A stretch of DNA of 37,492 nucleotides from Treponema sp. (GTDB lineage: Bacteria > Spirochaetota > Spirochaetia > Treponematales > Breznakiellaceae): contig WQSQ01000006.1 of the NCBI GenBank assembly GCA_009787775.1, positions 1 to 37,492 of the forward strand, written 5' to 3'. Shown in pieces: positions 2,446-22,752 of this stretch (the first letter of the stretch is position 1; each line of letters starts with the position of its first letter). A program made the position numbers and the translations under genes. Under the pieces are notes generated by a model. It ran no database searches and had not been told where the DNA came from. It was given only the letters and a program-made list of their open reading frames with translations.

Positions 2446-2787
2446 TTAATGTAAACCACGTTTTTTCAAGATTTTTTCTATATCATTATTATATATTTTT
2501 TGTATTTTTAGAAATTCTTGGGTGATTTCTTTTGCCAGTAATTTTGAAGCATCATCACTTATGTCATCTGGAATAAATAATCTATATGCATCAATTTTTA
2601 ATGCCATTGAAAGACTTGCTAAAGTCTTATCGCTAATCCATGTCCGACAACCTTCAATATCACAAATCATTGCTGTTGAAATTCCTGCCTTTTCTGCAAG
2701 ACTTTCCTGGGTAATGCCCTCCATTTCTCGAAAACGCTTAATATTGGTCGCTAAATTTCTTCTTATAACCTGAGCTTTATCAGCCAT
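2446..2787 (-). CDS. XRE-family helix-turn-helix transcriptional regulator
   Basis: 113 aa with NIKRFREMEGITQESLAEKAGISTAMICDIEGCRTWISDKTLASLSMALKI, a Cro/C1-type HTH. Confidence 0.88.
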   Translation of the reverse strand: MADKAQVIRRNLATNIKRFREMEGITQESLAEKAGISTAMICDIEGCRTWISDKTLASLSMALKIDAYRLFIPDDISDDASKLLAKEITQEFLKIQKIYNNDIEKILKKRGLH

Positions 2788-20863: not shown

Positions 20864-20973
20864 AACCCTATGTCAGGAACCGTGCGAGCAGGCGCCGCCC
20901 AACCCCGCCAGGTCCGGAAGGAAGCAACGGTAAGCGGATTCCTGCTGCGCCGCGGCCATCCTGGCGCAGGGTA
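20864..20973 (+). ncRNA. ffs: Bacterial signal recognition particle RNA (4.5S-type)
   Basis: Conserved core CCAGGTCCGGAAGGAAGCAACGGTAAG; closing helix ACCCTATGTCAGG / CCTGGCGCAGGGT; T-tract follows; located upstream of dnaX as is common. Confidence 0.93.
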
Positions 20974-21023
20974 CTTTTTTTTGTACCGGTTTTTTGTTTG
21001 TAAAACAGGTTTAATAGAGTTGC

Positions 21024-21058
21024 GGCTGTCCTGGAAGCCAGTTGCTTCCCGTACAGCC
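21024..21058. repeat. Two-tier hairpin immediately abutting the 23-bp array
   Basis: GGCTGT-CCT-GGAAGC-CAGTT-GCTTCC-CGT-ACAGCC: outer 6 bp, symmetrical 3x3 internal loop, inner 6 bp. Confidence 0.8.
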
Positions 21059-21173
21059 ATTGTACAGCGGACTGTACTAGTCTTGTACAATGTGTTGTAC
21101 TAGCCTTGTACAAAGGTTTATATTAGCCTTGTACAATGTGTTGTAATAACCTTGTACAACATGTTGTACGGTT
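21059..21173. repeat. Tandem array of five 23-bp units with GTACAA-N4-TTGTAC dyads
   Basis: Units 21059-21081, 21082-21104, 21105-21127, 21128-21150, 21151-21173; each starts (c/a)TTGTACA; dyad perfect in units 1, 2 and 5. Confidence 0.92.
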
Positions 21174-21264
21174 CTTTGCGGCTGCGGGCTAAAGGTTCGA
21201 TACAGCTTTGCATGAGGCATTGCACTCCCTTTTCCATAATACAATTAAATGTTATGCTGGTTTC

Positions 21265-22752
21265 ATGGCAGCCTCAGGATACGAAGTAACCGCTTCTAAA
21301 TACAGACCTAAAACCTTTGATGAACTGGCAGGACAGGAATTTGTTGTTTCTACCATTAAAAACTCGCTTAAAAACAGATCAATCGCACACGCTTATCTTT
21401 TTTCTGGGCCGAGAGGATGCGGCAAAACCAGCGCGGCGCGAATTCTTGCACGTTCCCTAAACTGCGAAAAAGGACTTGATACGGGACCTTGCGGCAAAGA
21501 CGATGAAACATGCGATAACTGCCGCGCAATCAGCAAGGGTGCAAGCATGGATGTAATCGAAATAGACGGTGCTTCCAATAATTCAGTTAATGACGTGCGG
21601 CAAATAAGGGATGAGGTTCTTTTTCCGCCGCAGGCAGGTCGATACAAAGTTTACATTATTGACGAAGTGCACATGCTTTCCAATCAGGCTTTTAACGCTT
21701 TGTTAAAGACAATAGAAGAACCGCCGCCGTATATTGTTTTTATTTTTGCGACAACAGAACTGCATAAAGTTCCCGCTACGATTAAAAGCCGCTGCCAGCA
21801 GTTTAATTTCAGGCTTATACCAGTTGAGACAATTCAGGGAATACTTAAAAACATATGTATTGAAAACGGAATTAATGCTGAAGACGATGCATTGTTCTGG
21901 ATAGCAAGAGAATCAACAGGAAGTTTACGCGATGCGTTTACCCTTTTTGATCAGGTTGTCTCTTTTTCTGCAGGCAATATACAAAGCAGTTTAATCCGCG
22001 AAAAACTGGGTATTATAGGACTTGATAAATTAAATGCTCTTGCGCAGTCCTGCGCTGAAAATAATGCACCTGCCGCATTTGCGCTTACCGATGAGATTTT
22101 ATCAGGCGGCGTTGCGATAGAACAGTTTGTTATTGATCTTGCAGGTTTCTACCGCAGTCTTCTTCTTCTGAAAAATGGAATAACAAGAGAATCGCTTTTG
22201 GGTTACCGCCCATCGCTTTTTTCCGTACAGACGCTTGATGTGCTGGATTCAATCCGACTGGAACGGGCGCTTGATATATTGCTTGACTGCTACCGCGATA
22301 TTCGTTATTCCGTTTCTCCCCGTTTTGAACTTGAAACAGCTGTTTCCAAGCTTGTATGGTTAAGCAAATGGGTCTCTCCATCTGAATTAAAAGACGCAAT
22401 TGATGATGCACGCCGCAGTATGGTTTCAGGGAAAACTCATTTGGTCCCGCATAACGAAGAATCTCGCTATGGGTATGAGCCTTCAGGTAACAGCACTGCG
22501 GACAGGCTGTCTTCCACAGGAGGTGCGGCAGGCGGCATGACAGTAAGCAGCAGCGCATCTTTTTCCGGAGACCATGACGGAGGACGTTCGTTAGCTGATG
22601 AACTTCAGCGGGTGATTGCGCAGAAAGAAAACGCCGCCGATGACGATGCTCCCATGTGGGACAGTGTTTTACGAAAAAGCGTAAGGGATAATTCAATTCC
22701 GCCTCAGGTTGAGAATGTATTATCGGTTATTCCCGGAACAATTGTTCAGTAA
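21265..22752 (+). CDS. dnaX: DNA polymerase III subunit gamma/tau (ORF opens at 21208; likely start MAASGYEVTASKYRPKTFDEL at 21265)
   Basis: KYRPKTFDELAGQEFVVSTIKNSLKNRSIAHAYLFSGPRGCGKTSAARILARSLNC, C-x(8)-C-x2-C zinc motif, IIDEVHMLSNQAFNALLKTIEEPP. Confidence 0.96.
   Translation: MAASGYEVTASKYRPKTFDELAGQEFVVSTIKNSLKNRSIAHAYLFSGPRGCGKTSAARILARSLNCEKGLDTGPCGKDDETCDNCRAISKGASMDVIEIDGASNNSVNDVRQIRDEVLFPPQAGRYKVYIIDEVHMLSNQAFNALLKTIEEPPPYIVFIFATTELHKVPATIKSRCQQFNFRLIPVETIQGILKNICIENGINAEDDALFWIARESTGSLRDAFTLFDQVVSFSAGNIQSSLIREKLGIIGLDKLNALAQSCAENNAPAAFALTDEILSGGVAIEQFVIDLAGFYRSLLLLKNGITRESLLGYRPSLFSVQTLDVLDSIRLERALDILLDCYRDIRYSVSPRFELETAVSKLVWLSKWVSPSELKDAIDDARRSMVSGKTHLVPHNEESRYGYEPSGNSTADRLSSTGGAAGGMTVSSSASFSGDHDGGRSLADELQRVIAQKENAADDDAPMWDSVLRKSVRDNSIPPQVENVLSVIPGTIVQ

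Follow-up and report, generated by a model that had tools for sequence, protein, structure and literature searches.

In Spirochaetota and Bacteroidota, genes encoding proteins with an HU-DNA_bdg domain and a DUF4469 domain usually adjoin an array of 23-bp dyads, mostly located immediately 3' of the stop codon, and the sequence of this array is specific to the gene. Three such paralogues in the genome studied here adjoin the three abundant families of period-23 arrays, one each, and in two other species the array tracks the protein clade. We therefore favor, with somewhat better than even confidence, the view that the array at positions 21059-21173 of the window is one of the dispersed copies of an array that binds protein and has its source at an HU-DNA_bdg + DUF4469 gene; binding is inferred here, in the absence of binding data. 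The window is the whole stretch of DNA analyzed (37,492 nucleotides), and corresponds to contig C6 of a 2.04-Mb draft genome that is 71% complete. The closest named relative, as judged from dnaX, is a Treponema metagenome-assembled genome.

The array between ffs and dnaX and its counterparts in the genome

The features of the window that are relevant to this analysis are as follows.

1979-2318, no strand assigned: dispersed family A element, consisting of the array with a leader of ~80 bp and a tail of ~60 bp (boundaries approximate)
2064-2224, no strand assigned: family A array of seven 23-bp units, CACTATAG.N.CTATAGTG plus a 6-bp spacer
20871-20969, + strand: ffs, bacterial small SRP RNA gene (RF00169), from Rfam
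20970-21221, no strand assigned: insertion (array and flanks, extent approximate), absent from the nearest relative (JAIRQF01, L009) according to the alignment
21059-21173, no strand assigned: family B array of five 23-bp units, 8-1-8 dyad TGTACAAG.N.CTNGTACA plus a 6-bp spacer
21265-22752, + strand: dnaX (DNA polymerase III gamma/tau), 84% identical to that of the relative in L009

The distance from the ffs core to dnaX is 358 bp in this genome versus 110 bp in L009, which has no array, and the insertion between the two genes thus amounts to ~248 bp. The flanks of the array are unique except for one 35-bp match. The five consecutive 23-bp units were found exactly as quoted in an earlier sequence-only reading of this DNA, as was the perfect 16-bp palindrome described for unit 5 (GTACAACATGTTGTAC); a partial unit extends to ~21050, and TRF called the array at 21051-21168 with a period of 23. 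Rfam yielded a match in the window for the SRP RNA only, and none for the arrays. A CRISPR array was ruled out, as the units are contiguous, their arms have diverged, and the 6-bp gaps are quasi-palindromic rather than unique spacers.

The family B unit contains two nested dyads. The dyad common to most families is represented in B by TGTACAAG.G.CTAGTACA (8+1+8, centre AG.N.CT), which is followed by a 6-bp spacer. The GTACAA....TTGTAC arrangement read initially is the second dyad, which spans the spacer. The paired GTACAG/CTGTAC change in unit 1 had been considered a sign of selection on symmetry. However, the two positions concerned were complementary in 46% of 82 B units, versus the 45–50% expected from shuffling, and the change therefore provides no evidence of compensation. 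Covariation between the arms was absent across 144 A units and 82 B units. In the 144 A units, positions 4/12 paired below expectation (0.52 vs 0.60), and units with both arms variant were scarce (27 observed vs 33 expected, p 0.03). The lack of covariation and the scarcity of double-variant A units argue against hairpins and, as far as can be judged from sequence data, would fit a dimer reading two half-sites, one of which is possibly weak. An excess of pairing was detected at spacer pairs 19/20 in A and 18/21 in B, suggesting that the spacer may have a weak symmetry of its own.

The genome survey covered 1.735 Mb of the 2.04 Mb. TRF returned 81 period-23 and 33 period-46 rows in this sequence, with no more than 31 for any other period, and tandem-dyad chains of at least four dyads numbered 30–34 at periods 22–24, versus 0–3 at each other period from 16 to 40. 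Periods 22–24 correspond to a single peak, because the dyad scan tolerates ±1 bp, and an order-1 shuffled genome gave only 0–2 chains of at least four dyads, which places the observed peak well above chance. A scatter of dyad periods across the genome would have refuted the reading from sequence, but the period proved to be essentially only 23. The arrays at 21059-21173 and 2064-2224 do have the same 23-bp period, and the proposal of a shared architecture with different sequences was also upheld, both arrays having an 8-1-8 dyad and a 6-bp spacer while belonging to separate families.

After merging, about 67 period-23 arrays remained, all intergenic and in every orientation relative to the neighboring genes (the small ORFs overlapping some of them are mechanical calls). 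They fall into at least seven sequence families with a size of exactly 23 bp.

Family A: 23 arrays, CACTATAG.N.CTATAGTG
Family B: 20 arrays, including 21059-21173, TGTACAAG.G.CTAGTACA
Family C: 19 arrays, GCGTCAAG.N.CTTGGTGT
Families D, E, F and G: one or two arrays each

Most families have the 8-1-8 dyad with the AG.N.CT centre and the 6-bp spacer, whereas family E and both subfamilies of G retain the 23-bp size without this centre. About 14 copies of family A in the genome have a leader and a tail in common, and no terminal inverted repeats were found in the family A consensus. The array of family G (G000 C51:2365-2598, L303) changes subfamily part-way, from GGGC/GCCC to GGAC/GTCC arms, with both arms changing at once. 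At two sites (G000 C3:57040-57232 and C3:62835-62995; L234 and L235), a B unit directly precedes a C array (GTACAAGGCTGGTC followed by AGGTTTGGTGG), forming a composite of the two families. A search of 39 congeners with the array sequences yielded one short remnant of family A, in G003, one B-like array, in G007, and no trace of family C, and TRF revealed no period-23 array other than that of G007 in about 340 kb of sampled relatives.

HU-DNA_bdg + DUF4469 genes beside the arrays

In an exploratory search for partners, the proteins of the genome were clustered and the clusters were ranked by their distance to arrays. The ranking pointed to three paralogues of ~250 aa with the HU-DNA_bdg (PF14848) and DUF4469 (PF14734) domains, both of which scored above the curated cut-off in the array-adjoining proteins. 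There are exactly three DUF4469 genes in the whole genome.

DUF4469 gene on contig C24: 13 bp from a B array
DUF4469 gene on contig C11: 1 bp from an A array
DUF4469 gene on contig C14: 415 bp from a C array

The probability of such adjacency for three random genes was 5.8e-4, and that of one array per family was 1.3e-4. Two of these three gene-adjoining arrays are located 5' rather than 3' of the gene. The sole canonical HU gene (C39:11261) does not adjoin any array. The sequence-only reading had envisaged a family of arrays with equal period and interchangeable sequences, matched to paralogous DNA-binding proteins, and this agrees with the presence of at least seven families and of three paralogues, one beside each of A, B and C, the binding of the arrays by these proteins being inferred. 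As candidate regulators, A, B and C have one adjoining DUF4469 paralogue each; near the rare families D, E, F and G, no DUF4469 gene was identified in this 71% complete genome. The DUF4469 link was first spotted among many paralogue clusters, so only the relatives and Bacteroidota provide independent tests of it.

The arrays of the congeners G007 and G003 were located by array sequence, before the partner protein was known. In G007, the stop codon of a DUF4469 gene marks the start of the B-like array (this genome has 15 such genes, and the flank was read for the one with the B-like array), and the A-like remnant of G003 lies 38 bp from the only DUF4469 gene of that genome, a fragment. A protein tree placed the G007 gene next to the B-linked paralogue at a support of 0.96, and the fragment from G003 next to the A-linked one at 0.89, indicating that the array family follows the protein clade.

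Plasmid and phage records were searched in the opposite direction, with the protein first, and arrays were looked for only afterwards. Of the nine loci obtained, six belong to a single strain of Parabacteroides distasonis, one belongs to Fulvitalea, and the remaining two are on human-gut phage scaffolds. TRF detected an array with a period of 23 (24 once) 3' of the DUF4469 gene in eight of these nine loci, and the array sequences were all different. The six Parabacteroides arrays lay 5, 22, 43, 26, 19 and 8 bp from the gene and that of Fulvitalea 146 bp; in the one phage scaffold with an array, the distance was about 500 bp. When the 3' regions of DUF4469 genes, including that of G007, were analyzed for the best lag between 10 and 40, the result was 23 (24 once) in 10/10 cases, weakly so in L364. 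As a background, lag 23 was the best in 2/16 intergenic gaps of one 50-kb Parabacteroides stretch, and one of these two was the DUF4469 gap. Scattered arrays of 22–23 bp are present elsewhere in Parabacteroides.

Proposed explanation, alternatives and known elements

We propose that an HU-like dimer would bind each dyad, with two half-sites per 23 bp, and that tandem dimers would coat and bend the array, which might thus form a local nucleoprotein or autoregulatory element. The paralogues would differ in specificity, making the arrays orthogonal, an inference on both counts. In this lineage, MITE-like copying would have taken arrays to over 60 intergenic sites, that between ffs and dnaX among them, and the proteins encoded by the source genes could presumably bind these dispersed copies. 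The invariance of the period of 23 across unrelated repeat families supports this paired-protein model, and half-sites that appear to vary independently in the sequences would be expected for a dimer reading two half-sites. Several points weigh against it: two of the three gene-adjoining arrays of this genome are 5' of the gene, the rare families D, E, F and G have no DUF4469 neighbor in the 71% complete genome, and a single Parabacteroides strain supplied six of the nine Bacteroidota and phage loci. AlphaFold2, given an alignment of five sequences, did not produce a confident structure (pLDDT 47), and the only relative in the PDB, 4FMR, is an uncharacterized protein. In the open literature, we found no described function and no private flanking array for the HU-DNA_bdg + DUF4469 combination (PF14848 + PF14734; PDB 4FMR), nothing linking either DUF4469 or HU-DNA_bdg to arrays, and only HU-HIG matches that looked irrelevant. 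As far as the open literature searched is concerned, the pairing of an HU-type gene with a private array is therefore undescribed.

BrickBuilt of Porphyromonas gingivalis is the closest known element to these arrays. It is a 23-nt minisatellite within a MITE, with 19 dispersed and always intergenic copies of imperfect tandem units without spacers, leader and tail segments, IS5-like 12-bp terminal inverted repeats and bidirectional promoter activity; its dyad symmetry was noted (Klein et al. 2015, PMC4596501). One of the copies, BrickBuilt_14, is next to a gene for an HU-type DNA-binding protein (PF00216), a link not developed in the text available, in which neither a cognate protein nor a class extending across phyla is proposed (PMC4596501). 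The arrays analyzed here resemble this element in being tandem 23-nt repeats without spacers, dispersed and always intergenic, and in the leader and tail of most family A copies, although the B array at 21059-21173 lacks these segments. They differ in that no IS5-like terminal inverted repeats were found in the family A consensus, and in the presence of at least seven families, versus the one repeat family per genome described; moreover, the BrickBuilt sequence is reported from Porphyromonas only.

REP/BIME elements are dispersed intergenic palindrome arrays, of which several families occur in a genome, every one having a dedicated protein paralogue. The likeness to REP/BIME with RAYT thus lies in dispersed, multi-family palindrome arrays paired with protein paralogues, but the arrays described here form a fixed 23-bp head-to-tail lattice and their partner is HU-DUF4469 rather than a Y1 transposase. 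A REP/RAYT system was rejected, with no Y1_Tnp (PF01797) gene detected in this 71% complete genome, and the presence of Y1_Tnp in congeners does not follow that of the arrays. In the parC/ParR and tubC/TubR partition systems and in plasmid iterons, a DNA-binding protein is encoded next to its own tandemly arrayed sites, as would be the case here if the inferred binding is correct. However, no motor NTPase gene was observed beside the annotated loci inspected, and the arrays of this genome are chromosomal, present in many copies, and associated with a different protein fold.

An unlikely, although still credible, alternative regards the arrays as MITE-like minisatellites comparable to BrickBuilt that are entirely selfish and are copied by a transposase in trans, their nearness to DUF4469 genes reflecting an insertion preference or hitch-hiking rather than binding. 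The about 67 intergenic copies without orientation bias of the neighboring genes are consistent with this possibility, as are the common leader and tail of family A copies, the lack of the ffs-dnaX insertion in the nearest relative, the near or complete absence of families A and C from 39 congeners, and the 23-nt unit of BrickBuilt itself (PMC4596501). It leaves unexplained, however, that single-array genomes carry their array where a DUF4469 gene ends, that array sequences are gene-specific, and that array families agree with protein clades; neither terminal inverted repeats in family A nor a multi-copy transposase among the paralogue clusters inspected could be identified. Dispersal with leader and tail could nevertheless be purely selfish. 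It is improbable that the units are tandem hairpins of RNA or single-stranded DNA, such as terminators, mRNA stabilizers or REP/BIME-like elements: every unit is indeed a dyad, but hairpins are not readily reconciled with the absence of compensatory changes in 144 A or 82 B units, the reduced pairing of A positions 4/12, the occurrence of arrays in every orientation to the neighboring genes, or the lack of an Rfam match and of a Y1_Tnp/RAYT gene in the 71% complete genome.

The repeats are present at many loci, a site-specific integrase adjoins the HU-DUF4469 gene at one Parabacteroides locus, and possible surface-protein genes follow other HU-DUF4469 loci, all of which might suggest that site-specific or homologous recombination acts on the arrays, in phase variation or the shuffling of gene cassettes. 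We consider this very improbable, as no rearrangement was seen, no recombinase is common to the loci, and a 23-bp tandem lattice is unlike the layout of recombinase sites; the earlier idea of a rearrangement system found no evidence in its favor. The position of the array at 21059 between ffs and dnaX could also be taken to indicate a local regulatory element evolved for one of these genes. This is scarcely tenable: the nearest relative is array-free, with ffs and dnaX 248 bp closer to each other, and family B is found at about 20 unrelated sites. Since the ~248-bp insertion is missing from the nearest relative, no special tie of the array to ffs or dnaX is apparent.

The paired-protein model can be extended to a widespread two-part HU-DNA_bdg/DUF4469 system, in which each gene has a private 23-bp-dyad array recognized by its product, specificity is re-programmed in each paralogue, and BrickBuilt-like minisatellites are escaped copies; we hold this generalization, in which binding is again inferred, to be only marginally better than an even bet. 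If true, it would give an initial hint at what the DUF4469/HU-DNA_bdg family does, explain the unplaced 22–24-bp minisatellites of Bacteroidota and Spirochaetota, possibly including BrickBuilt, and reveal natural sets of HU-fold proteins, each of which appears to have its own readable target sequence. Private operators assigned gene by gene would be surprising for HU proteins, a textbook example of low-specificity binding.

Other genes near the arrays

The distance to arrays is shorter for seven small XRE (HTH_3) paralogues than for random genes, with p 0.003 in a post hoc permutation test. One is in the window (2446-2787, - strand), 221 bp from the family A array, and the others are at C7:1769, C49:15920, C1:37627, C19:15944, C10:5626 and C25:18061 of the same genome (G000). 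This proximity is less specific than that of the DUF4469 genes and is a lead. The only array of family E (TCTACCGTACCGGTAGA, period 23; C15:32242-32341) is located 173 bp upstream of a gene for a TetR-family regulator (L255:12514-13149, corresponding to G000 C15:32514-33149). It is possible that this array is an operator array for a different protein fold, although there is one case only.

At L366:48720-49122 in Parabacteroides, a 22-bp-period array precedes an HU-HIG (PF18291) gene by ~120 bp, suggesting that arrays may extend to other HU clades in this genus. The gene following the HU-DUF4469 gene and its array at three Parabacteroides loci (L357:3918, L358:3868 and L359:3943) encodes a fimbrillin at one locus and a large hypothetical protein at two, and the array may therefore be part of the promoter region of a gene that possibly encodes a surface protein.
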